A stretch of DNA of 64,000 nt from a virus. The stretch is from the IMG/VR virus record IMGVR_UViG_3300036770_003657, positions 124,001 to 188,000 of that record. One strand, 5' to 3'. Made by a program: the position numbers and the translations under genes. Shown piece after piece: positions 2,864-57,821 of the stretch (its first letter is position 1; each line of letters opens with the position of its first letter). Under the pieces are notes generated by a model. The model was not told where the DNA came from. It saw nothing but the letters and a program-made list of their open reading frames with translations, and did no database searches.

Positions 2864-4263
2864 TGGCTATCGTTGATAAACAAAAGGTTGACCTATTATA
2901 TAAGAAACTTTTTGGTGTAGCCAAGACTGATTTTAATACACTAAAAGGTGCTAGTAACGAGGTTATTCCTAGTCCAGCACTGATTCGTGGTGATACTGTA
3001 TGGACACAGGCTAATAGTATACCAGCCATACCTGCTGTGGTTCCTAATATTGTTGAATACTTAACAATACAGTGTGAACCTGATGATACAACTACACCAA
3101 TAAGTGGAGTATACCCAACTTGGATAGCTAAAGGTGGTAGTCCTTTAGAAAGATTAAAGTATTGGATACCACCTGAGTTTGGATCAGCTTATTTGATCGA
3201 AGTATATATAGGTGATCCTGATAATGGTGGAACAAGAATATTTGATGCTGGTATAAATGATAAAGGTGCTTATTACTTTGACTATATGTCAGGTATTTTA
3301 AACTTTACAAATTATACCGATAATGGTGGTAGTACAAATGTTATCCCAGATGGGTTAAGTGGTAATGATATTTGGGTAAGAGGTTATAGATATATAGGTT
3401 TTGTTGGTATAACAGATCAACAAGAGGGTAAGTTTGGTAACTTGCAACTTATCAATAATACTATAGTTGCCATAAACACTGATATAAATGATGATCCAGA
3501 TACTGGTGATGTAATAATTCAACCTAGATTAGATGGATATGTTAGGCTACAGGGCAGTAGATTTACTCAACATGCTACAGATACGGATACTGATGACACT
3601 TATGATTCAGGTAATCCTTATAATACTATATATGAAAAAACAAGTTTATTGGCGAGAGCCAGTACTCTTAATGGTGAGGAAGTAGAAGTCACACTAGATG
3701 GACTTAGTCCAAGTAGTACAAATAGATTTGTATTGGCTAATGATACAACTTATAAGGTACAGGTCAATATAACTGGTAGACTGGATGGCGGAACAGAAAG
3801 CGCTATCTGGAATATAGATTTTTTAGCAAGCAGAGGAGCTAATGCATCGACGACGTCAATAATTGGAAACACTATAACTGAGAAAGTTGCTGGGTCGCCA
3901 AGTACCGCAGTAACTATAGTTACGGTCGCCGCCGGAAGTTTTATCAATGGTAATGTTTATAAAATTAAGACATTAGGCACAACTAATTGGGCCAGTATAT
4001 CAAGTGATGGTGCTACTAGAGATTATGAAGTGGGTAGTGTATTCACTGCTATAGGTTCTGGCACTGGAGATGGTACTGCTGATGAATATTTAAGCCCTAC
4101 TGATCAACGTACTTATAGTTGGGCAGTAAAAGCAGAAGCAGATACTACTAATGGATTGATTAAAATATTGGTTAAAGGTCCTAGTAAATTGAGTGGATCA
4201 GATCCAGATAAAACCATCAAATGGTTGGCAGCGATAAATACATTGGACATTTATGAGACCTAA
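2863..4263 (+). CDS. Virion structural protein with inserted 'YKIKTLGTTNW' module
   Basis: A 466-residue beta-rich protein. The N-terminal part ('MAIVDKQKVDLLYKKLFGVA', 'PALIRGDTVWTQ', 'LKYWIPPEFGSAYLIEVYIG', 'YYFDYMSGILNF') has the look of a conserved structural protein of marine T4-like phages. Residues about 355-405 carry a separate module, 'SFINGNVYKIKTLGTTNWAS' and 'GSVFTAIGSGTGDGTA', which recurs in many unrelated phage structural proteins and looks like a mobile domain. DNA around 3845-3945 is locally richer in G+C (GACGACGTC, GTCGCCGCCGG) than its surroundings, consistent with insertion. The gene sits between two other structural genes with minimal gaps, so a fibre or baseplate role is likely. 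Confidence 0.6.
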   Translation: MAIVDKQKVDLLYKKLFGVAKTDFNTLKGASNEVIPSPALIRGDTVWTQANSIPAIPAVVPNIVEYLTIQCEPDDTTTPISGVYPTWIAKGGSPLERLKYWIPPEFGSAYLIEVYIGDPDNGGTRIFDAGINDKGAYYFDYMSGILNFTNYTDNGGSTNVIPDGLSGNDIWVRGYRYIGFVGITDQQEGKFGNLQLINNTIVAINTDINDDPDTGDVIIQPRLDGYVRLQGSRFTQHATDTDTDDTYDSGNPYNTIYEKTSLLARASTLNGEEVEVTLDGLSPSSTNRFVLANDTTYKVQVNITGRLDGGTESAIWNIDFLASRGANASTTSIIGNTITEKVAGSPSTAVTIVTVAAGSFINGNVYKIKTLGTTNWASISSDGATRDYEVGSVFTAIGSGTGDGTADEYLSPTDQRTYSWAVKAEADTTNGLIKILVKGPSKLSGSDPDKTIKWLAAINTLDIYET

Positions 4264-4272
4264 GGAACGACG

Positions 4273-4518
4273 ATGACGTTGCGCTGGAATATTGATTTTA
4301 AGCCCGCAGACGCAGATTTCTGCTATGTCGACACCTACACAACTCATAATTCTAAAACATTCTACGAGAATATTTTTTACTGTAAGCCAGTAAAATATGA
4401 TGTCGATAGCACCCTATTAAATTATAACAATAATAACAAGCTATTCTACTCAACCTATTGGCCAAATAACGATATAACTCGTCATGCTGTAAGCCAAGGT
4501 GGTAGAATAAGCAGATGA
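4273..4518 (+). CDS. Small conserved-position protein upstream of the giant fibre
   Basis: An 81-residue Tyr/Asn-rich protein ('YVDTYTTHNSKTFYENIFYC', 'LFYSTYWPN') with two Cys and no motif I recognise. It starts 9 bases after the preceding gene, and its TGA overlaps the giant gene's start in the arrangement ATGA, so translation of the 6000-residue protein is probably coupled to it. It could be a small fibre connector or chaperone, but nothing in the sequence proves that. The function is unknown. Confidence 0.6.
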   Translation: MTLRWNIDFKPADADFCYVDTYTTHNSKTFYENIFYCKPVKYDVDSTLLNYNNNNKLFYSTYWPNNDITRHAVSQGGRISR

Positions 4519-7500
4519 GTGTATTAAAGAGATATTTCCAAGGCGTACAAGGAGTCCAAGACGGTTGGCGCTCCATAATGATTGGCGAAAAGGGTGCCCA
4601 AGGTACTCAAGGCCTACAAGGTGACAGCGCAGTTGGTGGATTTTTCTTATGGGAACAAACTACACCAGCTGTAGTTTGGGAAATTCCTCATAACTTAGGA
4701 GCACGAATTGTAGTCGTGCAGTTGGCCAATACCGATGGTGAAAGTATTCAAGAAGGTTTACCAGGTAGTCCATATATAGAATTTATTGATTCTAGTAATT
4801 TAAAGGTATATTTTAGCACAGCTACAGCAGGATATGCAGCAATTACCAGTGGTGGTGGCTTACAGGGTATCCAAGGTATGCAGGGTATCCAAGGTATACA
4901 GGGTGATTTGGGACCACAAGGTATTCAAGGTCGTCAAGGTACACAAGGTTTACAGGGTATTCAGGGTCTAGGTTTTGTATGGCGTGGCCTTTGGAATATA
5001 AACGAAACTTATAATTTTAATGACGTAGTATACTATAATGGTGGTAGCTGGGTAGCCAAACAACCAAATAGTGGTCAAGCAGCTCCATTCCAAGGTAGCG
5101 CATATTGGGATATAATGACAGCCCAAGGACCACAGGGTATACAAGGTGTACAAGGTAGATTTGGTCCACAAGGACCACAAGGACCACAAGGAACACAGGG
5201 TTTACAAGGTGATTTAGGTATACAAGGTATACAAGGTATACAGGGTATTCAAGGTCGAAGCATTATTTGGAAAGGTTATTGGACTGACACTGATGAATAT
5301 TTTATCGGTGATATGGTATACTATAATGGTGGTAGCTGGGTTTCAACTAGAGATGCTAGTTTATCGGATCCAAACATTAATAAAGAGCCATATGTAGGCA
5401 GTCAATTTTGGGATAAGAGTACTAGCCAAGGTATTCAAGGTGTACAAGGCGTACAAGGTGTACAAGGCGTCCAAGGCGTACAAGGTGTACAAGGCGTCCA
5501 AGGTATACAGGGTGTTGGATTCCAATGGCGTGGTACTTGGAGTGCTACTGAAGAATATGATATTAACCATACAGTATACTATAACGGCTTTAGTTATGTA
5601 AGTTTAATAAGATTCAACACTGGAAATAGACCAGATGACCCAGCTCATGATGATAAATGGGATATTGTAGCAGCACAGGGTGTACAGGGTGTCCAAGGCG
5701 TACAGGGTGTACAAGGTGTCCAAGGTGTCCAAGGTGTACAAGGTGTACAAGGCGTTCAAGGTGTACAAGGCGTTCAAGGTGTACAAGGCGTACAAGGCGT
5801 ACAGGGTGTACAGGGTGTCCAAGGCGTACAGGGTGTACAGGGTGTACAGGGTGTACAGGGTATCCAAGGTTTCAGTATTTTATGGCAAGGACAGTGGCAA
5901 AATAATGTAACCTATAATACAAACCACGTTGTTTATTATGATGGCAACAGCTGGATAGCATTAGAGGATGGAATAGAAGGTATACATCCAGGACCAGAAG
6001 ATGATAACGGTTATTGGGGAAGAATGACCGCTCAAGGTATCCAAGGTCTACAAGGTGTCCAAGGTGTACAAGGTGTACAAGGTGTACAAGGTGTACAGGG
6101 CGTTCAAGGCGTACAAGGTGTACAGGGTGTACAGGGCGTACAAGGTGTACAGGGCGTACAAGGTGTACAGGGCGTACAAGGCGTACAGGGTGTACAGGGT
6201 GTACAGGGCGTTCAGGGCGTTCAGGGTGTACAAGGTGTACAAGGTGTACAGGGCGTACAAGGTGTACAAGGCGTACAAGGTGTACAGGGTGTACAGGGCG
6301 TACAAGGTGTACAAGGTGTACAAGGCGTACAGGGTGTACAGGGTGTACAGGGCGTACAAGGTGTACAGGGTGTACAAGGTGTACAGGGTGTACAAGGTGT
6401 ACAAGGTGTACAGGGCGTACAGGGCGTACAGGGTGTACAGGGTGTCCAAGGTGTACAAGGTGTACAAGGTGTACAAGGTATTCAAGGTATTCAAGGTCTT
6501 GGATTTAACTGGAAAGGTGTTTGGGATCCTAATACTACATATTTTACTAATGATGCAGTATTTTATAATGGTAGTGCTTATAATAGTCAATATGATTATA
6601 ATATAGGTAAACGTCCAGATCTAACATGGGACCCTGAAGCATGGAGTATGATTGCAAGCCAAGGTATTCAAGGCTTGCAGGGTGTACAAGGTGTACAAGG
6701 TGTACAAGGCGTACAGGGTGTACAAGGCGTACAGGGTGTACAGGGTGTACAAGGCGTACAGGGTGTACAAGGTGTCCAAGGTGTACAGGGTGTCCAAGGC
6801 GTTCAAGGTGTACAGGGTGTTCAAGGCAATCAAGGTGTACAAGGCGTACAAGGCGTACAAGGTGTACAAGGCGTTCAAGGTGTACAGGGTGTACAGGGCG
6901 TACAGGGTGTACAAGGTGTACAAGGTGTACAAGGTGTACAGGGTGTACAGGGTGTCCAAGGCGTACAAGGTGTCCAAGGTGTCCAAGGTGTACAAGGTGT
7001 ACAAGGCGTTCAAGGTGTACAAGGCGTTCAAGGTGTACAAGGCGTTCAAGGTGTACAAGGTGTACAGGGTATTCAAGGCTTTGGTATCATTTGGCGTGGT
7101 TTATACGATTTTGATACAAGATATTATCAAAATGAAGTTGTATTCTATAATGGCGCAAGCTGGATTGTAAAATATACTGGTGTAGAAGGGGTAACTCCAG
7201 GTAGTGAAAATCCAACTACTGTACCAGGACCAGAGTATAATGATACATTTTGGGAATTATTAGCTAGTCAAGGTATTCAAGGATTACAAGGTGTACAGGG
7301 TGTACAAGGTGTACAAGGTGTACAGGGTGTACAGGGTGTACAAGGTGTACAGGGTGTACAGGGTGTACAAGGCGTACAAGGTGTCCAAGGTGTACAAGGT
7401 GTCCAAGGTGTCCAAGGTGTACAAGGTGTACAAGGCGTACAGGGTGTACAGGGTGTACAGGGTGTACAGGGCGTACAGGGTGTACAAGGTGTACAGGGTG

Positions 7501-10500
7501 TACAAGGCGTACAAGGTGTACAGGGTGTACAGGGTTTACAGGGCGTTCAAGGCGTTCAAGGTGTACAGGGCGTACAAGGCGTTCAAGGTGTACAAGGTGT
7601 ACAAGGTGTACAGGGTGTCCAAGGCGTACAGGGCGTTCAAGGTGTACAAGGCGTTCAAGGTGTACAAGGTGTACAAGGTGTACAGGGCGTACAAGGCGTA
7701 CAGGGTGTACAAGGTGTACAAGGTGTACAGGGTGTACAAGGTGTCCAAGGTGTACAAGGTGTACAGGGTGTCCAAGGTGTACAGGGTGTCCAAGGTGTCC
7801 AAGGTGTACAAGGTGTACAAGGTGTACAAGGTGTACAGGGTGTACAAGGCGTACAGGGTGTACAAGGCGTACAGGGTGTACAAGGTGTTCAAGGTGTACA
7901 GGGCGTTCAAGGTGTACAAGGTGTCCAAGGTGTCCAAGGCGTTCAAGGTGTCCAAGGTGTCCAAGGCGTACAGGGTGTACAGGGTGTACAAGGCGTACAG
8001 GGTGTACAAGGTGTACAAGGCGTACAAGGTGTACAAGGAGTACAGGGTGTTCAAGGCGTCCAAGGTATCCAAGGTATTCAAGGTCGCGGACCTGTATGGC
8101 GCGGTGATTGGAGTTCTACTGAACAATATCAAACAGATGATATGGTATACTATGATGGTAATACTTTTATTGCTATCACAGGCGACGCTACAACAAGATT
8201 CAGTGGTGTAGAAACTAGACCATTATTAAGCCCAGTAGGAGCAGGTTATCCAGGTGATGTGAACGATACTTACTGGAATAGAATGACCGCTCAGGGTGTC
8301 CAAGGTTTACAGGGCGTACAAGGTGTACAGGGTGTACAGGGTGTACAAGGAGTACAAGGAGTACAAGGTGTACAAGGCGTACAAGGCGTTCAAGGTGTAC
8401 AGGGCGTTCAAGGTGTACAGGGCGTTCAAGGCGTACAGGGTGTACAAGGAGTACAAGGTGTACAAGGCGTACAGGGTGTACAGGGTGTACAAGGCGTTCA
8501 AGGCAATCAAGGTGTGCAAGGTGTACAAGGAGTACAGGGTGTACAGGGTGTACAAGGTGTACAGGGCGTTCAAGGTGTACAAGGTAATCAAGGTGTCCAA
8601 GGTGTACAAGGCGTACAGGGCGTACAAGGTGTACAGGGTGTCCAAGGCGTACAAGGTGTACAAGGTGTGCAAGGCGTACAAGGCGTACAAGGCGTACAAG
8701 GCGTACAAGGTATACAGGGTGTACAAGGCGTACAGGGTGTACAGGGTGTACAAGGCGTACAAGGTGTTCAGGGTGTACAAGGTGTACAGGGCGTACAGGG
8801 CGTACAGGGTGTCCAAGGTGTACAAGGTGTACAGGGCGTTCAAGGTGTACAAGGTGTCCAAGGTGTACAGGGTGTACAGGGTGTACAGGGTGTACAAGGC
8901 GTACAGGGTGTACAGGGTGTCCAAGGTGTCCAAGGTGTACAAGGTGTACAAGGTGTACAGGGTGTACAAGGCGTACAGGGTGTACAAGGCGTACAGGGTG
9001 TACAAGGCGTACAGGGTGTACAAGGCGTTCAAGGCAATCAAGGTGTCCAAGGTGTCCAAGGTGTTCAAGGTGTACAAGGTGTACAGGGCGTTCAAGGCGT
9101 TCAAGGCAATCAAGGTGTACAGGGCGTTCAAGGCGTACAAGGTGTACAAGGCGTACAAGGCGTACAAGGCGTACAAGGTGTACAAGGTGTACAGGGTGTT
9201 CAAGGTGTACAAGGTGTACAGGGCGTTCAAGGTGTACAAGGTGTACAAGGCGTACAGGGTATTCAAGGATTTGGATTACGTTGGAAAGGCGAGTACGATC
9301 CTTCCACAATTTACCAACAAAATGATGTAGTTTATTATGACGGTGATAGCTTTATAGCAGTATATCCAATTGACCATTATAATGCACCGTTTGGACAATT
9401 CAGTGGTCAAGTACCAGAATTTACTCCAGGCGATGTAAACACTACATATTGGAATAGAATAACAGCTCAAGGTATTCAAGGTGTACAGGGTGTTCAAGGT
9501 GTACAGGGTGTTCAAGGTGTACAGGGTGTCCAAGGTGTACAGGGTGTACAAGGTCTACAAGGCATTCAGGGACTACAAGGTGTACAGGGTGTACAGGGTG
9601 TTCAAGGCGTCCAAGGTGTTCAAGGCGTCCAAGGTGTACAAGGCGTCCAAGGTGTTCAAGGCGTCCAAGGTGTACAAGGCGTCCAAGGTGTTCAAGGTGT
9701 ACAGGGTGTACAGGGTGTACAGGGTGTACAGGGTGTACAGGGTGTACAAGGCGTTCAAGGTGTTCAAGGTGTACAGGGTGTACAAGGCGTACAGGGTGTA
9801 CAAGGTGTACAGGGTGTACAAGGCGTACAGGGTGTACAAGGTGTACAGGGTGTACAGGGTGTACAGGGCGTACAAGGTGTACAGGGCGTACAAGGCGTAC
9901 AAGGTGTACAAGGTGTACAAGGTGTACAAGGCGTCCAAGGTGTACAAGGTGTCCAAGGTGTCCAAGGTGTACAGGGTGTACAAGGCGTACAAGGCGTACA
10001 GGGTGTACAAGGCGTACAAGGTGTACAGGGTGTACAGGGTGTACAAGGTGTACAAGGCGTTCAAGGTGTTCAAGGTGTTCAAGGTGTTCAAGGTGTACAA
10101 GGCGTACAAGGTGTACAAGGCGTACAGGGTGTACAAGGCGTACAAGGTGTACAGGGTGTACAAGGCGTACAAGGTGTACAGGGTGTACAGGGTGTACAAG
10201 GTGTTCAAGGCGTCCAAGGTGTACAAGGTGTACAAGGTGTACAAGGTGTACAAGGTGTCCAAGGCGTACAGGGCGTACAAGGTATACAGGGCTTTGGTAT
10301 TATCTGGCGTGGAATGTATGATTTCACAACAAGATATTATCAAAACGAAGTTGTTTTCTACAATGGTGCCAGCTGGATAGTTCGTTATACTGGTGTAGAA
10401 GGATTAACACCTGGTATAGATGACCCAACTACAGTACCAGGACCAGAATATAATGACACATATTGGGAATTACTAGCCAGCCAAGGTATCCAAGGATTAC

Positions 10501-13500
10501 AAGGTGTACAAGGTGTACAGGGTGTACAAGGTGTACAGGGCGTTCAAGGTGTACAGGGCGTACAGGGTGTACAGGGCGTACAGGGTGTCCAAGGTGTACA
10601 GGGTGTACAGGGTGTACAGGGTGTACAAGGTGTACAAGGCGTTCAAGGTGTACAAGGCGTTCAAGGTGTTCAAGGTATACAAGGTGTACAAGGTGTACAA
10701 GGTGTACAGGGTGTACAAGGTGTACAAGGTGTACAAGGCGTTCAAGGTGTCCAAGGTGTCCAAGGCGTTCAAGGTGTCCAAGGTGTACAGGGTGTACAAG
10801 GTGTACAGGGTGTACAAGGTGTCCAAGGTGTCCAAGGTGTACAGGGTGTACAGGGTCAGCAAGGTATTCAAGGTCTTGGATTTAATTGGCGTGGAGACTG
10901 GAAAGTAGATGAAGTATATGCCAAGAACGATGCTGTAAGGTATGATGGAACATCTTGGGTTTCTCTAACAAAAGATAATATAGGTAATAACCCAAGGCTT
11001 ACAGAAGGTGTTGAATGGGACGTAATTGCTGCACAGGGTGTACAGGGTGTTCAAGGTATTCAAGGTGTACAGGGCGTACAGGGCGTACAAGGTGTACAAG
11101 GCGTTCAAGGTGTACAGGGTGTTCAAGGCATTCAAGGATTCAGCTTTGTTTGGAGAGGTGAATACGATCACACAGCTGATTATCAACAGAATGATGTAGT
11201 TTATTATAATGGCAGTAGTTTTGTAGCTATTTGGCCAATTAATTTTTATGATGTCATTGGTAGCCAATTCAGTGGTGAAGTACCAGAAGTTATCGGAGTA
11301 TACGGTGAGCCAGGAACATTAAACAGTACATATTGGGCAAGAATGTCAGCTCAGGGCGTACAAGGTGTACAGGGTGTACAAGGCGTACAGGGTGTACAAG
11401 GTGTACAGGGTGTACAAGGCGTACAGGGTGTACAAGGTGTACAGGGTGTACAAGGTGTACAGGGCGTACAAGGTGTACAGGGCGTACAAGGTGTACAGGG
11501 TGTTCAAGGTGTACAAGGTGTACAAGGCGTTCAAGGCGTACAGGGTGTACAAGGAGTACAAGGTGTACAAGGTGTACAAGGCGTTCAAGGCAATCAAGGT
11601 GTACAGGGCGTTCAAGGCGTACAAGGTGTACAAGGCGTACAAGGCGTACAAGGTGTCCAAGGTGTACAAGGCGTTCAAGGCGTTCAAGGCGTACAAGGTG
11701 TACAAGGTGTACAAGGTGTACAGGGTGTACAAGGTGTACAGGGCGTTCAAGGCGTGCAAGGTGTACAAGGTGTACAGGGTGTTCAAGGTGTACAAGGTGT
11801 ACAAGGTGTACAAGGTGTACAAGGCGTACAGGGTGTACAGGGTATACAGGGTGTCCAAGGTGTCCAAGGCGTACAGGGTATACAAGGTTTTGGTATTATT
11901 TGGCGTGGATATTACGACTTCAATACTACATATTTCCAAAACGAAGTTGTTTTCTATGATGGAAATAGTTGGATAGTAAAATACACTGGAGTAGAAGGTG
12001 TTCCTACAGGTATCAGTAATCCAGCAGCAGTTCCTGGACCAACCGATATTGATACTTGGTGGGAAAGATTAAGTAGCCAAGGTATTCAAGGTTTACAAGG
12101 CGTTCAAGGTGTACAAGGTGTACAAGGCGTTCAAGGTGTACAAGGCGTTCAAGGTGTACAGGGTGTACAGGGTGTACAAGGTGTACAAGGCGTACAGGGT
12201 GTACAGGGCGTTCAAGGCGTTCAAGGTGTACAGGGCGTACAAGGCGTACAGGGTGTACAAGGTGTACAAGGCGTACAAGGCGTACAAGGTGTACAAGGCG
12301 TACAAGGTGTACAAGGCGTTCAAGGTGTACAAGGTGTACAAGGCGTTCAAGGCGTACAAGGCGTTCAAGGCGTACAAGGCGTACAAGGTGTACAGGGTGT
12401 ACAAGGCGTCCAAGGCGTTCAAGGCGTCCAAGGCGTACAAGGTGTACAAGGCGTACAGGGTGTACAAGGCGTACAGGGTGTACAAGGTGTCCAGGGTATC
12501 CAAGGTATACAAGGCGGACAGGGTATACAAGGCGTACAGGGCGTTCAAGGTGTACAAGGTGTACAAGGCGTACAGGGTGTACAAGGCGTACAGGGTGTAC
12601 AAGGCGTACAGGGTGTACAGGGCGTACAGGGTGTACAAGGCGTACAGGGTGTACAAGGCGTACAGGGTGTACAAGGCGTTCAAGGCGTACAGGGCGTTCA
12701 AGGTGTCCAAGGTGTACAGGGTGTACAGGGTGTACAAGGTGTCCAAGGTGTACAGGGTGTACAAGGTGTACAAGGTGTACAGGGTGTACAAGGTGTCCAA
12801 GGTGTACAAGGACAACAAGGTATTCAAGGCGGCGGTGTAACTTGGAAAGGCATTTGGAATTCAACAACTAATTACATTGAAAATGATGCAGTATTTTACA
12901 ATGGTAATTCTTGGATCAGCGTATTAGAACCAAATATAGATAATGTACCTAATTTAATGTCAATTTATTGGGACATGCTTGCTAGCCAAGGTATTCAAGG
13001 CTTGCAAGGCGTACAGGGTGTACAGGGTGTACAGGGCGTTCAAGGTGTACAGGGCGTTCAAGGTGTACAGGGCGTTCAAGGTGTACAGGGCGTTCAAGGC
13101 GTACAGGGTGTACAGGGCGTACAAGGTGTACAGGGTGTACAGGGTGTACAGGGTGTACAGGGTGTACAGGGTGTACAGGGTGTACAGGGCGTACAGGGCG
13201 TACAGGGCGTACAGGGCGTACAAGGTGTACAGGGTGTACAGGGTGTACAAGGTGTACAAGGCGTACAAGGCGTACAGGGCGTTCAAGGTGTACAGGGCGT
13301 ACAGGGCGTTCAAGGTGTACAAGGTGTACAGGGTATTCAAGGTGTACAGGGTATTCAAGGTGTAGGATTAATATGGAAAGGTCAGTGGAGTGATTCAGTA
13401 TCTTACATAGCCAACGACATTGTATTTTACGATGGCAGTGCTTATATTTCAGTTCAGTCAACTAACCTAAATAATAATCCAACAATTGAAGATAGATCAA

Positions 13501-16500
13501 CTGAATTTACAACGCCTGGAACTTATACTTGGATAGCACCTCCAGGAGTTACCAGTGTAAGTGCTGTAGCAGTTGGTGGTGGATCTAGACCACAAATAAT
13601 AGGTAGTGGATTCAGCGCCAAGAGTTATGGTGGTGGCGGTGGTGGTTTAGGTTATAAGAATAATATACCAGTCGTTCCTGGCCAAGCTTATACAGTAGTA
13701 GTTGGTAGTGGAGCAGCCACAGGCACATATGGTGATGGTGGTGATAGCTACTTTATCAGTTCAATTACAGTAAAAGGTGGCGGAGCTACTGGCAGCACAG
13801 GTGGTACTTATGTAGGTGATGGCGGTGGTAGCGGTGGTAACGGTGGTGCACCAAACGGAAATTCAAGTGGCGGCGCAGGTGATGGCAGTGCTACATCAGG
13901 TGGTGGTGGTGGTGCAGGTGGTTATAGTGGCAACGGTGGCGTTGGCGGAACTATGTTGGTTGACAGTGGTAATGGAGCCAATTTTGGTGCTAACGGCAGT
14001 GGTGGCGGTGGTGCTGGTGGTGGCGGAAGAAATAGTCACGGTGGCGGCGGTGGCGGTGGTGTTGGTATCTATGGCGAAGGAGACAGTGGACTTGCCAATA
14101 CTACTGCTTATGTACCAAACGTAGGTGGCTGGGGCGGCAATGGTGGTAGTGGTGGTACTACTGGTGGTACTGGAACTCAATCAGGTGTTAATGGTGGTGG
14201 CGGCCTATACGGTGGTGGTGCTGGTGGTGGCTGGGCTGGATATGGTGATGCTGCTGGTGGTGGTGCAGTAAGAATCATATGGGGTGCAGGACGTAGTTTC
14301 CCAAGCACAAACGTCAGTACTGCTAGTGATTTTGTTGAAACATCTACCAATGTTCAATACTGGCAGCGATTTACCAGTCAAGGTATACAGGGCGTACAAG
14401 GTCTTCAAGGTGTACAGGGCGTACAGGGCGTACAGGGCGTACAGGGCGTACAGGGTGTACAAGGCGTACAGGGTGTACAAGGCGTACAAGGTATCCAAGG
14501 TGTACAAGGTGTACAGGGTATCCAAGGTGTACAGGGTGTACAAGGTGTACAGGGTGTACAAGGTGTACAGGGTGTACAAGGTATACAGGGTGTACAAGGT
14601 ATACAGGGTGTACAGGGTGTACAGGGCGTACAGGGCGTACAGGGTGTACAGGGTGTACAAGGTATCCAAGGTGTAAGTATAACTTGGAAGGGAGTTTATG
14701 ATAATGCCGCTCAATATAGCCAAAATGACGTAGTATTTGAAAACGGCAGTAGTTGGATAGCAGTTTATCCATATACAAGTGGAACGTTTAGTGGCATAAG
14801 ACCAGGTGAAACAGTAGGTTGGATCACATATTGGAATATGATGACCAGCCAAGGTATTCAAGGTGTACAGGGTGTACAGGGTGTACAAGGTATTCAAGGT
14901 GTACAGGGTGTACAAGGTATTCAAGGTGTACAGGGTGTACAGGGTATACAAGGTGTACAAGGCGTACAAGGTATTCAAGGTGTCCAGGGTGTACAGGGTA
15001 TACAAGGTGTACAAGGCGTACAAGGTATTCAAGGTGTACAGGGTGTACAAGGTATTCAAGGTGTACAGGGTATCCAAGGTGTACAGGGTGTACAGGGTAT
15101 ACAAGGTGTACAGGGTGTACAGGGTATACAAGGTGTCCAGGGTGTACAGGGTGTACAGGGTATACAAGGTGTACAGGGTGTACAGGGTATTCAAGGTGTA
15201 CAGGGTGTACAGGGTATTCAAGGTGTACAAGGCGTACAAGGTATCCAAGGCGGTCAAGGTATTCAAGGTGTACAGGGTGTACAAGGTATCCAAGGCGTCC
15301 AAGGTGTACAAGGTATTCAAGGTGTACAGGGTGTACAAGGCATCCAAGGTGTACAAGGTGTACAAGGTATTCAAGGCGGTCAGGGTATACAAGGTGTACA
15401 AGGTATACAGGGTGTCCAAGGCATCCAAGGTGTACAAGGTATTCAAGGCTTCCAAGGCACCAAGGGTGAGGGCTTTACATTCTTGGGAGATTGGAGTCCT
15501 GTAACAGAATATATTAAGAATGACAGTGTATACTATAATGGTTCAAGCTATACAAGCACTTACGGTGATATAACATATGCTGGAGGTGGATTTGCTAATA
15601 TTAATCAACGTCCAGGTGAACTAGTAACAATATCAAATGTTAGCCTAACTGCTAGTGGTGTATTCAGTTGCGATAGTGTAAACCTATATAAAGCAGAAGT
15701 TATTAGAGTAAGTGGTACAGTTCCAGCAGGATTTACAATTGAGAATCCAGATAGTCCTGCTCAAGCTCCAACTTACTATACAGCTGGTCAACAAGTTGAT
15801 AATGATTATTATGTAATCACATATCCAAATAATCCAACTACAACCTTTACATTAGGACGTAGTCAATTCTCTGTAGATCCAATTAGTACAACTGGTACAG
15901 GCAGTTTAAGTGGGTTAACATTTAAGGCTGTTCCATGGTTAATTATTAGTGCTCAAGGTATTCAAGGATTACAAGGTGTACAAGGTATACAGGGTGTACA
16001 AGGTATACAGGGTGTACAAGGTATACAGGGCGTACAGGGTGTACAAGGTATACAAGGTGTACAAGGTGTACAAGGTATTCAAGGTGTACAAGGTATTCAA
16101 GGTGGTCAGGGCATACAAGGTGTACAAGGTATTCAAGGTGTACAAGGTATACAGGGTATTATTGGTACTCCAGGTGGTTATACAGCAAATTATAATTGGG
16201 ATAGTAGCACAGCAGTTGCCGATCCAGGTGTAGGTAATGTAACTATTGAGCGTAGTTGGACAGATCAAACTGCTGGTCAAGTTTATATCAATCTTGACAA
16301 GTATGACGCAGATGGACAAGATCGTGCAGCGTGGGTCAATGCTATCAAGTTCTTTGGTAGCGCAAGTAGCTACTATGGTGTTATTACAATTATGCCAGAA
16401 GGTGCTACAAATCAGCGCTGGACCGGTGTTATCACCGTAGTAAATGATCTCAGTACACATTTTAGACTACAGCTAACCTTTGTTGATAGTCAAGGATCAG

Positions 16501-19500
16501 CCCCAACAGTTGGACAAAAATTAGGCGTCAGCTTCCAGCCAGCTGGTCAACAGGGTATCCAAGGCGTACAAGGTATCCAAGGCGTACAAGGTATCCAAGG
16601 TGTACAAGGTGTACAAGGTATCCAAGGTGGTCAAGGCATCCAAGGTGTACAGGGTGTACAAGGTATACAAGGCGTACAAGGCGTACAAGGTATCCAAGGC
16701 GTACAAGGTATCCAAGGTGTACAGGGTGTACAGGGTATACAGGGTGTACAAGGCGTACAAGGCATACAAGGTGGTCAAGGCATACAAGGCGTACAGGGTG
16801 TACAGGGTATCCAAGGTGTACAAGGTGTACAGGGTATACAGGGCGTACAGGGTGTACAAGGTATCCAAGGTGGTCAAGGCATCCAAGGTGTACAGGGTGT
16901 ACAGGGTATACAGGGCGTACAGGGTGTACAAGGTATACAAGGTGGTCAAGGTATACAAGGTGTACAGGGTGTACAGGGTATACAGGGCGTACAGGGTGTA
17001 CAAGGTATCCAAGGTGTACAAGGTATACAGGGTATTCAAGGTTCAAGTATCACGTGGAGAGGCCAATACAGTCCAACAACTGTATACAATACAAACGACG
17101 TAGTATTTGAAAATGGTCAAAGCTGGGTTGGTGTAAGAGGTACAGGTAATAGTCAAACATTAACTAGTGTAGCACACAGCGGTAGTGGTGTGTTTACTTG
17201 TGCTGCTGCTACATTATTTGTTGGTGACCAAGTTACTGTAAGTGGAACAAATGGTGGCAACGTAGTATTACCAGGATACAGTGCTAGTGGTACAAATTAT
17301 TATATTATAGCTACAAATGGTACTACACAATTTACTTTAAGTACTACACTAAACGGATCTGCTGCTACAGCTACCACAGGTACTACAGTCAGTGGATCAA
17401 TGATATTTGTTGTACCAACAGGATTTGGAAATGTAAGACCTAACCTAACACAAACTAATCATTGGAACTTAATGACTAGCCAAGGTATCCAAGGTGTACA
17501 GGGTGTACAGGGTGTACAAGGTATCCAAGGTGTACAGGGTGTACAGGGTATACAAGGTGGTCAAGGCATACAGGGTGTACAAGGTGTACAGGGTGTACAA
17601 GGCATACAAGGTGGTCAAGGTATCCAAGGTGTACAAGGTATACAGGGCGTACAAGGTGTACAAGGTATCCAAGGTGTACAGGGTATTCAAGGTATTACTG
17701 GTTTAGGTATTACTTGGAAAGGAACTTGGACTAGTTCAACAGTTTACAATAGCAATGACGTAGTATTCTACAACGGCAATAGCTGGATTGGTGTACGTGG
17801 AACAGGTAACAGTGTAGCATTAAGTGGTGTAAGTATCGGGGCTAGTGGCGTAATATCCTGTACTGCTACAAGCTTGCCAGCAGGATTCCAAGTAGGTGAT
17901 CAAGTTCTAGTTGCAGGCATTAATAGTGGAACTGGTGCATTACCAAGTTACAGCGCCAGCGGCACTTACTATTATATTATAGCTACAAATGGTAGCACAC
18001 AATTTACCATAAGTACAACAGCTGGTGGTGCTGCTGCTAGTACAACTTCTGGTACTGTAAGTGGTGCAATGACCTTTACTGTAGCAACAGGTTTTGTCAA
18101 TGTCATTCCAAACTTAACTAATACAAACCACTGGAACCAAATGACCAGCCAAGGTATCCAAGGCATCCAAGGTGTACAAGGTGTACAGGGCATACAAGGT
18201 GTACAAGGTGTACAGGGTATACAAGGTGTACAAGGACGTCAAGGTGTACAGGGTGTACAAGGTATCCAAGGTGTACAAGGTGTACAAGGTATACAAGGTG
18301 GTCAAGGCATTCAAGGTGTACAGGGCGTACAAGGTATACAGGGTGTACAAGGACGTCAAGGTGTACAGGGTGTACAGGGCATACAGGGTGTACAAGGCGT
18401 ACAAGGTATACAGGGTGTACAAGGCGTACAAGGTATACAAGGTGGTCAAGGCATTCAAGGTGTACAGGGTGTACAAGGTATACAGGGTGTACAAGGTGTA
18501 CAAGGTATCCAAGGCGTACAGGGTCAGCAAGGTATTCAAGGTTCAGGCTTTAAGTGGCGTGGTGTTTGGGCTCCACAATTTGACTATGCTGTTAGTGATA
18601 TGGTATCACACTTGGGTAGCACATATGTTAGCTTAACTCAGTATCTTCCACAAACACTAGCAAATGTTCAAATTATATCTGCTGGTAAAATAACTTGTAA
18701 CACTCCAACTAATGCATTAAATCCAGGTGATGGTCTTTATGCTATAGGTGTTAAAACTGGAACAGGGTCTATAACTGGTTATAATAGTGCAGGAACAAAT
18801 TATTTCATAACAACAGTTAGCAATAATGCTGGCACTACTACATTAACTTTAAGTGCCAATTATAATCCGTATGTAACAGTTAGTACCACAGCAGGTACAA
18901 GCACTGGTATTACTTTCTACGCACCAACTTTTGTACCAACTAGCTTTACTAAAGATCAATATGATAATGGTCAATCAAGTGTAGGTGCTTGGCAGTTAGC
19001 AGGTTCACAGGGTATTCAGGGTGTACAAGGCGTACAAGGTGTACAAGGTATACAGGGCGTACAAGGTATACAGGGCGTACAAGGAGTACAGGGTATACAA
19101 GGTGTACAAGGTATACAGGGTATTCAAGGTGCAAGCCCAACTTGGAGAGGAACATATACAAGTGGTGTAGCATACAATACTAACGATATGGTATTCCATA
19201 ATGGTAATACATATATGGCCATTTATGGTACAGGTAATACTGTAGCATTAAGTGGTGTAAGTATTGGAGCTAATGGAACATTTACTTGTACAGCAGCAAG
19301 CCCAGCTCTTGTAGTTGGTAATGGTGTTAGAATCGTGGGCGCTGCCAGTGGTACTGGTAGTATTAGTGGTTACACAGAAGGTGCAACTTATTATATCACA
19401 GCTACAAACGGTAGTACAAGCTTTACTTTAAGTTCCACAATCGGCGGTGCAGCAGTAACAACTACTGCTGGTACAAGCACAGGATTAACATTCCAACATC

Positions 19501-22500
19501 CAGTAAGTTTTGCTAATCAAGTTCCAGCAACAGGTCAACCCCCAGTAGTTAATACAACTTACTGGAATCAGATGACCAGCCAAGGTATCCAGGGTGTACA
19601 GGGTGTACAGGGTGTACAAGGTATCCAAGGTGTACAAGGCGTACAAGGTATACAAGGTGGTCAAGGTATACAGGGTGTACAGGGTATACAGGGCGTACAA
19701 GGTATACAAGGTATTCAAGGCTTTAGTGTAACTTACAGAGGACAATACAATCCTGCTACAGTATACACACAGAACGATGTGGTATTTGAAAATGGACAAA
19801 GCTGGATTGCTATATGGCCAATTACAACAAGTACATTTAGTAATGTAAGACCAGGAGTAACAGCAGGTTGGGCTAACTATTGGGGCAACTTAACTAGCCA
19901 AGGTATACAGGGTGTACAAGGTGTACAAGGTGTACAAGGTATTCAAGGTGTACAAGGACGTCAAGGTGTACAAGGTATACAAGGTGTACAAGGCGTACAA
20001 GGTATTCAAGGTGTACAAGGTGTACAGGGTATACAGGGATTAAGTATCAATTGGAAAGGCCAGTTTAATCCTGCTACAGCATATAGTCAAAACGATGTAG
20101 TATTTGAAAACGGCGCAAGCTGGATAGCAAAATGGCCATATGCTAGTGGAACCTTTACAGGAATCAGACCAGGAGTAACAGTAGGCTGGGCTACATACTG
20201 GGATCAAATGACCAGCCAAGGTATCCAAGGTGTACAGGGTGTACAGGGTATCCAAGGTGTACAGGGTGTACAGGGTATCCAAGGTGTACAGGGTGTACAA
20301 GGTATACAGGGTGTACAAGGTGTACAAGGTATCCAAGGTGGTCAAGGTATACAAGGCGTACAAGGTATTCAAGGTGTACAAGGCGTACAAGGTATTCAAG
20401 GTGTACAGGGTGTACAAGGTATACAGGGCTTTAGTGTAACTTATAGAGGAATCTATAACAATGCTACAGTTTATACTCAAAATGATGTAGTATTTGAAAA
20501 TGGACAAAGTTGGATAGCAGTGTATCCAATTACAACAGGTACATTTAGTGGTCAACGTCCAAGTTTAGCAAATACAACATATTGGGGTCAATTAACAAGT
20601 CAAGGTATACAGGGTGTACAAGGTGTACAAGGTATACAAGGTGGTCAAGGTATCCAAGGTGTACAAGGTGTACAAGGTATACAGGGCGTACAAGGTGTAC
20701 AAGGTATCCAAGGTGTACAGGGTGTACAGGGTATACAGGGTGTACAAGGACGTCAAGGTGTACAGGGCATACAAGGTGTACAGGGTGTACAAGGTATACA
20801 AGGTGTACAAGGTGTACAAGGTATCCAAGGTGGTCAAGGTATCCAAGGCGTACAAGGTATTCAAGGTGTACAAGGTGTACAGGGTATCCAAGGATTTAGC
20901 GTAACTTACAGAGGAATATATAATAACGCCACAGTTTACACTCAAAATGATGTAGTATTTGAAAATGGACAAAGTTGGATAGCAGTATATCCAATAACTA
21001 GTGGAACATTTAGTGGTCAACGTCCAAGTTTAGCAAACACAACATATTGGGGTCAGTTAACAAGTCAGGGTATACAAGGTGTACAGGGTGTTCAAGGTAT
21101 TCAAGGTGGTCAAGGTATACAAGGTGTACAAGGTATACAAGGTATCCAAGGTGGTCAAGGTATTCAAGGTGTACAGGGTGTACAGGGTATACAGGGTGGA
21201 CAAGGTATTCAAGGTCGTCAAGGTATACAAGGTATCCAAGGTGGACAAGGTATACAGGGTATTCAAGGTGGTCAAGGTATCCAAGGTGTACAAGGTGTAC
21301 AAGGTATCCAAGGTGGACAAGGTATCCAAGGTGTACAAGGCGTACAAGGTATACAGGGTGGACAAGGTATACAAGGAGTACAGGGTGTACAAGGTATACA
21401 AGGTGGACAAGGTATTCAAGGTATCCAAGGTATCCAAGGATTTAGTGTTACATATCAAGGTGTATACAATAATGCTACAGTGTACACTCAAAATGATGTA
21501 GTATTTGAAAATGGACAAAGCTGGATTGCAATATATCCAGTAACAACAGGAACATTTAGTGGAATACGTCCAGGTGTAACAGTAGGTTGGGCTACATATT
21601 GGGGTAGATTAAGTCAACAAGGTATACAGGGTATACAGGGTGGACAAGGTATACAGGGTGTACAAGGTATCCAAGGTATCCAAGGTGGACAGGGCATACA
21701 GGGTGTACAAGGTATCCAAGGTATCCAAGGAGGCCAAGGTATTCAAGGTATCCAAGGTGGCCAAGGTATACAGGGTGTCCAAGGTGTTCAAGGTATACAG
21801 GGTGGACAAGGTATACAAGGTAGACAGGGTATACAGGGTCAACAAGGACTACAGGGTACACAGGGTCAACAAGGTATCCAAGGACAGCAAGGTACACAGG
21901 GTATACAGGGTCAACAAGGACTACAGGGTACACAAGGACAACAAGGTATCCAAGGTCAACAAGGTACACAGGGTATACAGGGTCAACAAGGATTACAGGG
22001 TACACAAGGACAACAAGGTATACAAGGTCAACAAGGTACACAGGGTATACAGGGTCAACAAGGTACACAAGGACTACAGGGTACACAAGGACAACAAGGT
22101 ATACAAGGACAGCAAGGTACACAGGGTATACAGGGACAACAAGGTACACAAGGTCAGCAAGGTATACAGGGTACACAAGGTCAGCAGGGGACACAAGGTG
22201 TTCAAGGATTCCAAGGATTCCAAGGTTATCAAGGTGTACAGGGTGAACAAGGTATACAGGGTGTACAAGGTATTCAAGGATTCCAAGGATTTATTGGTGA
22301 TCAAGGTACAACAGGTTCACAAGGTACAACAGGTGATACAGGCTTACAGGGATTACCAGGACCACAAGGTACAGATGGACAAACTGGAGCACAAGGTCCA
22401 CAAGGTCCACAAGGTTTAGATGGAACAATTGGAACATTAAGTTTAGCAACATTCAAGAGCGTAGTAGCAGGTGCCGCAAACTTCCAAGACTTCCAAACAG

Positions 22501-22517
22501 CAGTAGCAGCACTATAA
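4515..22517 (+). CDS. Giant 6000-residue collagen-like, multi-module fibre/adhesin
   Basis: One uninterrupted frame encodes 6000 residues. Residues about 41-115 form a fibre domain with the motif '[19 protein letters not shown]'. From residue about 154 to 5700 there are about 25 Trp/Tyr-rich modules of 50-65 residues, pattern 'WrGxWxxxxxYxxNDvVxYnGxSWia...P...YWxxmtsQG', like the chitin-binding-type carbohydrate modules common in phage fibres. They are joined by long tracts of Gly-X-Gln triplets (mostly GVQ, also GIQ, GGQ, GQQ). Other domains are a Gly-rich domain (about 2994-3256), a '[13 protein letters not shown]' fibre domain (about 3883-4011) and beta inserts in some late modules. The C-terminal tract becomes more canonical ('[18 protein letters not shown]'). 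I infer an extremely long tail-associated fibre or surface filament that binds glycans. A passive decoration role is also possible. Confidence 0.85.
13494..14280 (+). other. Gly-rich receptor-binding-like domain inside the giant fibre
   Basis: After module 14 starts ('[20 protein letters not shown]'), the protein switches to '[20 protein letters not shown]' and then about 230 residues dominated by Gly with Ser, Ala, Asn and Tyr. The module's closing 'QYWQRFTSQ' follows at about 14358-14382. The lead-in plus polyglycine run resembles Gly-rich domains of phage and bacterial adhesins. By analogy with polyglycine-loop adhesins such as T2-type gp38 it could be the specificity tip. This is the only such domain in the 6000 residues. 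Confidence 0.6.
16162..16548 (+). other. '[13 protein letters not shown]'-type fibre domain inside the giant protein
   Basis: About 129 residues without Gly-X-Gln triplets: '[20 protein letters not shown]', then '[18 protein letters not shown]', then a beta-rich C-terminal half. The pattern (YxFDSSTxxxDPGxGxxxxN ... DxDGxD) occurs next to collagen-like stretches in many other phage fibre proteins. It replaces a carbohydrate-binding-like module at this position. Confidence 0.6.
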
Positions 22518-22531
22518 GGAGATGATGAGTA

Positions 22532-25372
22532 ATGCCAATTAATTTAGATCAGACGGGCCCAGCGCATTTATTAAGCACCGATGAAGATGGTCTGATCCTT
22601 AATGGCAGTCCAGTCATCTCAAAGAGTATTCACGTTAGTGATATCGAACCAAAAACTTATTTTGGTGATACTAATACTAAATTACTTTGGCTAGATACTG
22701 GTGTACAAGGTGTTAGTAGCTTCCCTAACGGTGGAGCAGCCAATTGGATATTGAGAACTAATGGCAATGGCACAGTAAGTTGGATTCCACCTAGTACTTT
22801 AGATGCTACAAAGTTTCATTATAGAACTAGTACTAATAATACAGCACCAGATCCATTAGGTTTAGGTCCAGGATCTGGGTATGTACGATTTGTCAGGGAT
22901 GAAGAAATAGATCCAATGAGTACTGCTACAAAACTTGTAATTAGTAGTTATAGTGTTGCAGGAGATCCTAATTACATTATGGGAGCTACACCTGGAGTAC
23001 CAAGTTATAATGACATTGGTAGTTTTATAAATGGGTTAAGTGCTTATGGTAATAATAGCCGTAGAGGATTTATCAAGGTAGAAAAGGAAAACGATCCTAA
23101 TCATTTTCAAATTTATAGTTTTAGTACCATAGTAGATAGAGTAGGTTGGTTTGAAATTGATGTTGAAATCGTAAGAGTTGAGACTGGGGATGAAAATTTT
23201 CCTAACGATGAGCCAGTCAGTGTGAACTTTAGTGTGGCAGGCCCCGAGGCATTGACTCAAGATTTAAGTAATTATGTCACTTTTACAGGAACTCAAACAC
23301 TAACGAACAAAACTATAACAACACCAATAATTACAGAACCATCAATTAATAATAAGAGCACTATGCTCACTGATGTTGCTATTGGAAGTAATGGGACCTT
23401 CACCTGTAATGCATCTACTCTTAGAGTACATGATGCTTTAAGAGTAACAGGCCTAAATGCAGGCGATGGATCTATTACTGGATACGATGATGTTAGTGCT
23501 GTATATTTTATTACAGCGACAAATGGTACCACAAGCTTTACCCTAAGTGATACTTTAGGTGGCGTAGCCATAACCACAGTCGCAGGAACAGTTAGTGGAG
23601 CAATGACTTTTACAAATAATGTAGGTGGGATAATTTCTTTTGATGATGCTGATCCAACTAATGGTTTTGAAACAAGGTTAACTGTAATTAGTAGCAGTGC
23701 AGATCATAAAATTATACTTCCAGATGCAACTACTACTCTTGTAGGTATTGATAACACTCAAACTTTAACTAATAAGACTATCATTGAGCCAATTATACAT
23801 GATCCTGAAGTAATTATTACAGATGATGATGTTAATATAACCATAAGCAGTAATATTGCAACAAGTTTCAATAGCAGAATTAATACAGCTGATGCTAAAA
23901 CATATAGTTGGGCAACAAATTATTATTTTGATGGCACGAATTGGCTTAAAGATAATGATAATAGAGGTGGATGGCGTCTAAGTAAAGTAGCAGATATAAC
24001 GCTAGATGCTAATAATAAAATAATTTTAGGCTATGCTCCAATAGGTAGTAATGTAGAAGATCAAAAATTAATATTAAATGGAGATGGTCAGTTAGAATTA
24101 ACTTCAAATATAGCTAGTACAACTACAAGCACTGGTACACTGGTTGTTGATGGCGGTGTTGGAATTAGTGCCGATGTTAATATCGGAGGTGATACTAATA
24201 TAACCGGAACACTTGAAGCAGGAGCAATTGAAAGTACACCGATAGGTTTATCATTCAGATCAACTGGCGCATTTACTTCTTTGGCAGCAAATGGTATACT
24301 GCAAGTAACTGATGCTACAGCCAGTATAAATCAAACAACTGGAGCAGCAGTTATTACTGGTGGACTAGGGGTAGGAGGTGCTGCTTATGTAAATGGTCCA
24401 GTATACTTAAATGCTATAGATCCATTAGACGAAACAGAACTAACAGGGTATAGTTTAGTAGTTCAAAATCCACAGGCTAAAGTAAGGGTAGGGCCTAATT
24501 ATATTGATGGTGCTGTAGATTATATTGATATTTTGACACTTGAAGATAACCCAACAATTACTACTACCAGTGTAAATTTTACATTGGATAATTTACAAAG
24601 TGGTGGTAATATTACATTAACTGCTACAGATGCTTCAGTAATAGTAACTGCAAATACTGCCTCTACAGATAAAGTAACAGGCGCATTAAAAGTAGCAGGT
24701 GGTATCGGTGTTGAGTTAGATATTCATGCTGATGATATCTATGTATATGGACAAACTGGATTAAATGACACTGCCAGTCAAGTAGTAAGTCTAGCAGCAA
24801 CTCAAACATTAACAAATAAAACAATTAATGCCCCTACTATTGATGATGTAGTACTTACTGGCACAGTTAGTGCTAATAGTAGCACAGGTATCGCAGGACA
24901 ATTATTATCAAGCACAGGAACTGGTGTCGAATGGGTTAATCCTGTAACTAATAGTGCTGTAGTATTTTATAAAGCCAGTGATCAAAACTTTTTTACAGCA
25001 GCTACAGTTACATTGCCTGCTAGTCCAACTATTGTAGTAGGATCAGATTTTGGTGATATGAATGCTGCTGGTAGTGGAATCTTTACTTTTAGTGTGGCTG
25101 GTACATATCAAATCATTATCAATTACAGTGTAAGTGATACGGGTGGTGGAGCAACTTATCCAACAGTAGATTTTTGGGTAAGAAAAAATAGCGCAGATAC
25201 TATAAAGTATTGTCAAATTTTAACAAATGGTTCACGAAGAGGTGCTGTAACTGAATATATTGAGTTTGATGTAAATGATACTGTACAATGGTATGTCAAT
25301 AGCACATTACGAGTAAACGGCGGTAGCCCTAGTGCTACAGGCAGTAGATTTACTATTGTTCGAGTAGAATAA
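22532..25372 (+). CDS. Tail-fibre protein with 'TQTLTNKTI' repeats and C1q-like C-terminal head
   Basis: A 946-residue protein with Shine-Dalgarno GGAGATGA upstream. The motif 'TQTLTNKTI' occurs three times (near residues 254, 411 and 761), as in many phage fibres. Residues about 271-370 contain a beta insert ('IGSNGTFTCNASTL', 'YFITATNGTTSFTLSDTLGG') that also occurs in the preceding giant protein. Further on are 'LVVDGGVGISADVNIGG' and 'GALKVAGGIGVE' repeats. The last 140 residues ('GIFTFSVAGTYQIIINYSVS', 'YIEFDVNDTVQWYV', 'SRFTIVRVE') have the spacing of a C1q/TNF-like jelly-roll trimer head, a plausible receptor-binding domain. No bacterial-type terminator follows; a strong promoter begins 2 bases after the stop. 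Confidence 0.7.
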   Translation: MPINLDQTGPAHLLSTDEDGLILNGSPVISKSIHVSDIEPKTYFGDTNTKLLWLDTGVQGVSSFPNGGAANWILRTNGNGTVSWIPPSTLDATKFHYRTSTNNTAPDPLGLGPGSGYVRFVRDEEIDPMSTATKLVISSYSVAGDPNYIMGATPGVPSYNDIGSFINGLSAYGNNSRRGFIKVEKENDPNHFQIYSFSTIVDRVGWFEIDVEIVRVETGDENFPNDEPVSVNFSVAGPEALTQDLSNYVTFTGTQTLTNKTITTPIITEPSINNKSTMLTDVAIGSNGTFTCNASTLRVHDALRVTGLNAGDGSITGYDDVSAVYFITATNGTTSFTLSDTLGGVAITTVAGTVSGAMTFTNNVGGIISFDDADPTNGFETRLTVISSSADHKIILPDATTTLVGIDNTQTLTNKTIIEPIIHDPEVIITDDDVNITISSNIATSFNSRINTADAKTYSWATNYYFDGTNWLKDNDNRGGWRLSKVADITLDANNKIILGYAPIGSNVEDQKLILNGDGQLELTSNIASTTTSTGTLVVDGGVGISADVNIGGDTNITGTLEAGAIESTPIGLSFRSTGAFTSLAANGILQVTDATASINQTTGAAVITGGLGVGGAAYVNGPVYLNAIDPLDETELTGYSLVVQNPQAKVRVGPNYIDGAVDYIDILTLEDNPTITTTSVNFTLDNLQSGGNITLTATDASVIVTANTASTDKVTGALKVAGGIGVELDIHADDIYVYGQTGLNDTASQVVSLAATQTLTNKTINAPTIDDVVLTGTVSANSSTGIAGQLLSSTGTGVEWVNPVTNSAVVFYKASDQNFFTAATVTLPASPTIVVGSDFGDMNAAGSGIFTFSVAGTYQIIINYSVSDTGGGATYPTVDFWVRKNSADTIKYCQILTNGSRRGAVTEYIEFDVNDTVQWYVNSTLRVNGGSPSATGSRFTIVRVE

Positions 25373-25374
25373 TC

Positions 25375-25402
25375 TTGACAATGTAAAAAAAATCTATATA
25401 AT
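25375..25402 (+). promoter_or_regulatory. Perfect sigma70-type promoter TTGACA-N16-TATAAT
   Basis: TTGACA at 25375-25380 and TATAAT at 25397-25402 are both exact consensus, separated by 16 bases. It would initiate near 25409 and drive the three glycan genes that follow. It lies in the only 52-base gap of this region. Such a host-polymerase promoter suggests early expression, unlike the structural genes on either side. Confidence 0.75.
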
Positions 25403-25403
25403 A

Positions 25404-25431
25404 CTAGCATAGATAACTATAATTATGCTAG
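25404..25431 (+). promoter_or_regulatory. Perfect 8-bp inverted repeat spanning the start codon of the DUF4422-like gene
   Basis: CTAGCATA (25404-25411) and TATGCTAG (25424-25431) are exact inverted copies 12 bases apart. The right arm contains the ATG at 25425. It also overlaps the expected transcription start, so it could be a repressor operator or an mRNA hairpin hiding the start codon. Confidence 0.5.
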
Positions 25432-27414: not shown

Positions 27415-27420
27415 TAGATA

Positions 27421-47865: not shown

Positions 47866-48209
47866 ACGAAGATCTTAAAAAAGTATTTGAAATAGCTAAT
47901 TATATGACCACTTTAAATCTTCAAAAGAGGGAATTATATGAAGAATTTGAGCAGAGCTGTTATTATCATAAAGATGGCCATACATTTAAAGCTTCAGAAC
48001 AAATGATAACCTTTTTAACTTCATTATTAAATAGAAACTTGGAATCTTTCTTAATTTTGGATAGTAACAATGAGCCTTATAACATTGAAAATATTGACGA
48101 ATTTTTAAAAGATATTATAGCAGTACATACTGAAGCAATGAATGCTTATTATTATAGTTACAAAAAATTAGTGCAGCAAAGAAGTGTTGAATCAATAATT
48201 ACAAAATGA
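47862..48209 (+). CDS. Helical protein of unknown function
   Basis: A 115-residue protein from ATG 47862, which overlaps the cupin stop as ATGA; an upstream in-frame ATG at 47829 would bury 33 bases in the cupin gene and is less likely. It is mostly helical and charged ('LKKVFEIANYMTTLNLQKRE', 'IDEFLKDIIAVHTEAMNAYY'), with no motif I recognise. It could be a partner of the adjacent transferases. Its stop again overlaps the next start. Confidence 0.6.
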   Translation: MNEDLKKVFEIANYMTTLNLQKRELYEEFEQSCYYHKDGHTFKASEQMITFLTSLLNRNLESFLILDSNNEPYNIENIDEFLKDIIAVHTEAMNAYYYSYKKLVQQRSVESIITK

Positions 48210-49814: not shown

Positions 49815-49815
49815 T

Positions 49816-57813: not shown

Positions 57814-57821
57814 GATAGTTT

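Follow-up and report, generated by a model that had tools for sequence, protein, structure and literature searches.

The question raised by this locus is whether an open reading frame of 6000 codons, much of it a simple Gly-X-Gln repeat, can be a genuine viral gene and, if so, what sort of structure its product would build. The locus lies in a window of 64,000 nucleotides, positions 124,001 to 188,000 of the virus record IMGVR_UViG_3300036770_003657 (G000; 399,796 bp). A first-pass annotation of this DNA had proposed an uninterrupted frame for a very long, proline-poor, collagen-like phage fibre with about 25 carbohydrate-binding-like modules. The frame is indeed uninterrupted: it starts with ATG and contains no internal stop and no N. 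The parts of the protein, and the genes that adjoin it, are collected in Table 1.

Table 1. Features of the fibre gene and its neighbours (positions in the window).
Feature	Position	Strand	Basis or remark
Conserved upstream neighbour ORF758	758..2863	+	phrog_8578; homologue of Atu_ph07 gp325
Conserved upstream neighbour ORF2863	2863..4263	+	phrog_9417; N-terminal resemblance to Atu_ph07 gp325
Giant collagen-like fibre protein, 6000 aa	4515..22517	+	Frame, composition, orthologues
N-terminal domain, residues 39–114, beta-rich, candidate virion anchor	4629..4856	+	Start conserved in alignment
CBM5/12-type module 1	4974..5126	+	Module count, Pfam
CBM5/12-type module 2	5262..5429	+	Module count, Pfam
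CBM5/12-type module 3	5520..5678	+	Module count
CBM5/12-type module 4	5877..6035	+	Module count
Long-tract region: near-pure (GVQ)n tracts, the longest of 109 triplets, with modules 5–13 between	6036..13367	+	
Module 5	6504..6662	+	
Module 6	7086..7271	+	
Module 7	8091..8294	+	
Module 8	9276..9470	+	
Module 9	10299..10484	+	
Module 10	10881..11036	+	
Module 11	11145..11354	+	
Module 12	11895..12080	+	
Module 13	12837..12989	+	
Module 14, fused to Gly-rich domain	13368..14381	+	Pfam Gly_rich_2
Module 15	14679..14852	+	
Module 16, 161 aa	15474..15956	+	Position kept in G008 and G014
Non-CBM module, 121 aa, starting TANYNWD after GTPGGY	16182..16544	+	Position kept in G008 and G014
Module 17, extended	17049..17483	+	
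Module 18, extended	17709..18152	+	
Module 19, extended	18549..19001	+	
Module 20, extended	19137..19583	+	
Module 21	19728..19901	+	
Module 22, within the 62-aa stretch modelled with AlphaFold2	20046..20219	+	
Module 23	20436..20603	+	
Module 24	20901..21068	+	
Module 25	21447..21620	+	
C-terminal cap, 25 aa, candidate trimer nucleus	22440..22514	+	
Putative virion structural protein, 946 aa, directly downstream	22532..25372	+	Syntenic in G008
Three fibre-adjoining genes: DUF4422; TPR with FkbM-like region (by eye); GT2-like glycosyltransferase	25425..28200	+	Conserved in G008

Under two definitions of a tract, the protein contains 28–29 Gly-X-Gln tracts with 1,141–1,187 triplets, that is, 3,423–3,561 residues or 57–59% of its length, in keeping with the rough count of 3,500 made at first reading. 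The commonest triplets are GVQ (813) and GIQ (212), followed by GGQ (29), GLQ (20–21) and GQQ (19). Glutamine occupies nearly every Y position; proline, earlier remarked to be nearly absent, accounts for 0.28% of tract residues (0.6% at X), and charged residues for 0.6%. Pfam Collagen and CBM_5_12 both exceed their cut-offs in several pieces of the protein, which also matches tail-fibre PHROGs. The uninterrupted Gly-X-Y tracts match Pfam Collagen, as those of phage collagen-like tail fibres do; the proline-rich X positions and charged residues of known viral collagens are not found in them.

A long frame in a simple repeat might arise by misassembly or by chance. Several related contigs do end inside the array, and the repeat opens long frames on other strands too. 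Against this, no 99-mer occurs twice within the array, which makes its collapse or expansion unlikely given an assembler that used longer k-mers. The tract codons are varied for glycine (GGT 855, GGC 268, GGA 46), and those for valine (GTA 659, GTT 85, GTC 66) and glutamine (CAA 769, CAG 388) are likewise mixed. Two diverged contigs carry full-length orthologues: IMGVR_UViG_3300022752_000018 (G008) encodes one of 6,247 aa, with matching ends and a gene order conserved to either side, and IMGVR_UViG_3300022752_000020 (G014) one of 6,481 aa, also with matching ends, adjoining a homologue of ORF758. The lengths of the three proteins agree to within about 8%, though single tracts differ widely. 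Compared with the G014 orthologue, the modules differ by 0.19, 0.15 and 0.40 at codon positions 1, 2 and 3, and are 76% identical in amino acids; they are under purifying selection, the changes falling mostly at third positions. In a close strain, L009 (97% identity in the best segment), all eight of the tract lengths that were compared between C-terminal modules are retained; the terminal tracts of L009 and G000 are nine triplets apart (74 against 83), and the tract at the contig edge of L009 is cut. Expansion of the array during assembly was rejected on the unique 99-mers and the two diverged orthologues, and an artefact or a chance frame is largely refuted and extremely improbable. Searches of GenBank phages by tblastn, with the N-terminal and module-rich parts of the fibre and the low-complexity filter on, gave no match. 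It should be added that an 81-aa ORF just upstream (4273–4518) is by eye unlike the ORF of 85 aa that takes its place in G008, and so is probably not a gene.

The virus is a T4-like jumbo myovirus, nearest to PA5oct, Phosso and Atu_ph07; its terminase is nearest to those of PA5oct, MIJ3, Phosso, Atu_ph07 and the CBB/BF group. The first-pass comparison with T4 stands in the broad sense (UvsX, UvsY, a gp32-like protein, sheath and terminase), but a jumbo phage of this kind should not be measured against a virion the size of T4. Around the fibre gene lie those for sheath, tube, head closure, terminase, UvsX and UvsY. In Atu_ph07, gp325 is the homologue of ORF758, gp326 is a weaker match to it, and the next gene, gp327, is annotated as a tail fibre with collagen repeats; in Phosso, the ORF758 homologues adjoin a collagen-like ‘minor tail protein’ (81451–83622). 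Tail-fibre proteins were identified in the Atu_ph07 virion proteome, and CDS 284–329 of that phage are named as a virion-protein cluster (PMC6102473). Given this synteny with a collagen-like tail-fibre gene and the presence of tail-fibre proteins in those virions, assignment of the product as a virion fibre, as first suggested, is well supported by comparison of genes. The protein might instead serve off the particle, as an intracellular scaffold or a secreted matrix during infection; the virion-gene neighbourhood, the tail-fibre PHROGs and the positional equivalents in Atu_ph07 and Phosso make that very unlikely.

The DUF4422, TPR and GT2-like genes downstream are possibly a cassette that modifies the fibre. 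Between them and the structural gene is a sequence that matches the sigma-70 promoter consensus at 12 of 12 positions (TTGACA-16-TATAAT; 25375–25402, + strand). Further along the window (48000–64000), GC falls to 24–32% across a run of genes with radical SAM/SPASM proteins; Atu_ph07 likewise has several radical SAM genes (gp165, gp168 and gp171).

By our own count there are 25 CBM5/12-type modules in the fibre, the number first estimated, some of them extended and one fused to a Gly-rich domain; 24 sites match a single module at E<1e-3. Their membership of CBM5/12 is indicated by profile and by predicted fold. PF02839 scores 39.5 bits on the N-terminal piece against a cut-off of 26.2, and most modules taken singly score under the Pfam cut-off. 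The AlphaFold2 model of one module is four-stranded (pLDDT 89.9), and Foldseek relates it with probability 1.00 and E of 0.007–0.06, no match reaching E 0.001, to the Anabaena eCIS baseplate (7b5h), the A-1(L) tail fibre (8kec) and the chitin-binding domains of ChiC and SmChiB (E 0.03–0.05 for the latter domains). Judged by eye, a tryptophan or tyrosine stands at the candidate aromatic position in about half of 33 aligned modules. The modules are candidates for glycan binding; in A-1(L), no binding to its host cells was seen for the neck fibre's own carbohydrate-binding module (PMC10966104). A single module like those of the fibre also occurs in a virion structural protein (phrog_11591) elsewhere in the window (30256–31560, – strand).

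Sequence searches of the PDB with a module or the N-terminus of the fibre returned nothing useful. The N-terminal domain is modelled with pLDDT of about 70–86 over most of residues 41–110, too weakly for a fold search, and gave no significant match to PDB folds. A pattern for the C-terminal cap matched only members of the fibre family among the loci compared.

Taken together, these results indicate that the probable product of the gene is a giant virion fibre of a jumbo myovirus, collagen-like but almost free of proline. Three chains would assemble in parallel as a homotrimer, joined and nucleated by the conserved C-terminal cap; the Gly-X-Gln tracts would form a triple helix, with each interruption of the repeat folding into small CBM5/12-type knobs displayed along the shaft; and the conserved N-terminal domain would fasten the fibre to the capsid (as a hair), neck or tail. 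Trimer, helix, location and tethering role alike are predictions. At 0.286 nm per residue the contour of the tracts alone computes to 0.98 µm, which agrees with the earlier figure of nearly one micrometre as arithmetic for extended tracts, and the whole fibre, if fully extended into a filament, would measure about 1.0–1.2 µm, several times the virion. Such a length suggests a flexible multivalent tether, which could catch cells or surface glycans at a distance from the virion and so make infection more likely.

Counting against this scheme is the near-absence of proline and charged residues, the usual stabilisers of collagen. Proline occupies 22–48% of X positions in the collagens known from phages, viruses and Gram-positive bacteria (PMC3368898, Table 4), and the values for the present tracts are far lower. 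The protein could be a virion fibre that is not an extended filament, being wrapped around the tail or capsid, or having tracts that are partly disordered or form polyproline-II bundles; such bundles, and untwisted triple helices, do exist (PMC11869133). Known appendages are also short, the whiskers of CBB being about 119 nm (PMC5259590) and the neck fibres of A-1(L) about 100 nm (PMC10966104). We nevertheless regard a compact or disordered fibre as the less likely reading: the pure (GVQ)n tracts have no turn-like sequence breaks, and the length step described below is within the values for a twisted triple helix.

A further feature of the fibre is a regularity in its tract lengths. The lengths of 118 de-duplicated inter-module tracts fall in groups around 16, 25, 33, 42, 51, 60, 68, 76 and 85 triplets, with a Rayleigh R of 0.48 at 8.53 triplets (8.45–8.78 on bootstrap by phage) that was exceeded in none of 4,000 jittered sets. 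Homologous tracts differ by 0–1, 8–9, 16–18 or 26–27 triplets, and values in between are rare. When differences of at least three triplets were compared at orthologous positions, the period was 8.45–8.5 in all three pairs among G000, G008 and G014. The mean cosine at 8.53 triplets, a period fitted with G014 held out, was 0.70 (G000–G014), 0.74 and 0.59 (jitter p <= 1e-4); periods of 8 and 9 fit worse, and 7 and 10 do not fit. What is new here is that orthologous tract lengths differ by multiples of 8.5 triplets, with the caveat that orthologous tracts share ancestry. Distinct lengths taken within each phage give a weaker signal (Fisher p about 8e-4; p 0.16 for G000 alone), and distinct lengths pooled over all phages proved a weak test (R 0.25). 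In two tracts with identical flanks, the near-identical contigs L036/G008 and L037 have lengths of 48/44 and 43/47 triplets (−4 and +4); these half steps break the rule of 8.5 and are either natural variation or assembly error.

The step lies close to what is known of collagen twist. True repeats of 6 nm (7/2 helix, 7 triplets) and 8.58 nm (10/3 helix, 10 triplets) have been described, and native collagen shows values near 7.7 nm among others (PMC3933592); phage collagens have an average twist of −106° (PMC3368898). By our arithmetic that twist corresponds to 8.57 triplets per turn, and 8.53 triplets to about 7.3–7.4 nm; the ideal helices, with 7 and 10 triplets to the turn, lie on either side. 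For helices poor in imino acids a turn of nearer 10 triplets is expected, which counts against reading 8.5 as a turn. We read the regularity as tract lengths held near whole turns of the triple helix, which would set successive knobs on the same rotational face. We tentatively propose, as a possibility, that the phase of the helix supercoil is under natural selection: integral turns (8.5 triplets, about 25.6 residues, about 7.3 nm) would separate successive knobs, and length changes would be tolerated mainly in whole turns, along a collagen that has almost no proline and measures about one micrometre. Against this, a trimer with three-fold symmetry should show a period of one-third turn (about 2.85 triplets), and it is the full-turn period that is seen; the one-third-turn phase (2.84 triplets) was rejected at a mean cosine of only 0.12–0.30.

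It is quite possible that, in the same fibre, the steps come instead from turnover of repeats in the DNA, through slippage or unequal recombination working with units of 8 and 9 triplets, and owe nothing to selection on helix phase. The array is rich in repeats, its tracts share ancestry, G000 shows mild autocorrelation at 8 and 16 triplets, and a 72-bp unit is reported near the 3′ end. The best period is, however, non-integer in each comparison, and the autocorrelation of codons at silent sites has no peak at 8.5 or 17 triplets in G000, G008 or G014, so that no higher-order repeat in the DNA can be seen behind the steps. Added to this, phages with unlike patterns of X residues share the same length classes. 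In the tracts of L010–L013, valine and isoleucine alternate at X with a period of 2 triplets, and in G000 and L009 the period is 2.67; being phage-specific, this pattern was dropped as a structural signal. Searches of an open-access library returned no title or abstract with an earlier report of quantised collagen tracts, or of a proline-poor Gly-X-Gln giant phage fibre.

The fibre gene is not the only giant frame of this virus. Upstream of the window (G000:C1:103124-123172; L049:19124 to L048:19172) lies a second, of 6,682 aa (MSTNIRFKRSDIPGKV...), with C-x-RD and YGGN-like repeats and a syntenic homologue of 6,653 aa in G008; the genome thus has two proteins of over 6,000 aa with about 5 kb between them. 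A third, of 4,801 aa with CBM5/12-like matches (G000:C1, about 53000–63000, – strand), lies beside a collagen-like frame of 365 aa (52142–52681). Large frames with CBM matches also occur in G008, Phosso, Atu_ph07, PA5oct and a Vibrio phage. A further contig of 405,016 bp (G004; L017, L061 and L062) ends inside collagen-like frames and has several shorter collagen-like ORFs (346–1,758 aa); it is a different phage with a collagen array of its own.

If borne on the virion, the protein would rank among the longest predicted phage fibres; as a collagen almost without proline, hydroxyproline or charge, it would test what a triple helix requires. The twist of collagen has long been argued over, between the 7/2 and 10/3 models, and quantised tract lengths would offer an evolutionary readout of it, testable with natural length variants.

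Finally, the fibre can be set beside known systems. The chitin-binding CBM5/12 modules of ChiC and SmChiB, and their phage and eCIS relatives (8kec and 7b5h), share its Pfam profile and predicted module fold, but here the modules are strung along collagen tracts. The hair-like whiskers of the jumbo phages CBB, phAPEC6 and Atu_ph07 are long thin appendages of related myoviruses, those of Atu_ph07 being chiefly capsid-associated (PMC6102473). The present gene is of a candidate type for such appendages, the hair genes of CBB not having been identified in the paper that describes them (PMC5259590). As to the hairy-whisker proteins of Rak2-like phages, collagen-like genes are present in the relatives Atu_ph07 and Phosso and absent from CBB, Serratia BF and PA5oct; collagen as the general hair protein was therefore rejected, and CBB, hairy yet lacking such a gene, indicates that hairs do not need it. 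Close counterparts are the collagen-like proteins of the Agrobacterium phage Atu_ph07 (gp327, gp288 and gp472) and of the Sinorhizobium phage Phosso, which come from related jumbo phages and, in the case of gp327 and the Phosso gene, adjoin homologues of ORF758; they differ in being about 610–790 aa long, with visibly proline-richer tracts and fewer and other modules. The collagen-like tail fibres of phages, among them EPclA–D of E. coli prophages and the tail fibres of PHROG 5073, 6320 and 819, have the same glycine at every third residue, breaks at small domains and fibre position in the genome; the EPclP entries consulted are of about 400–700 aa with 48% proline at X and many charges (PMC3368898), as against 6,000 aa here. 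Amongst collagen-like phage fibres, the present one is an extreme form.
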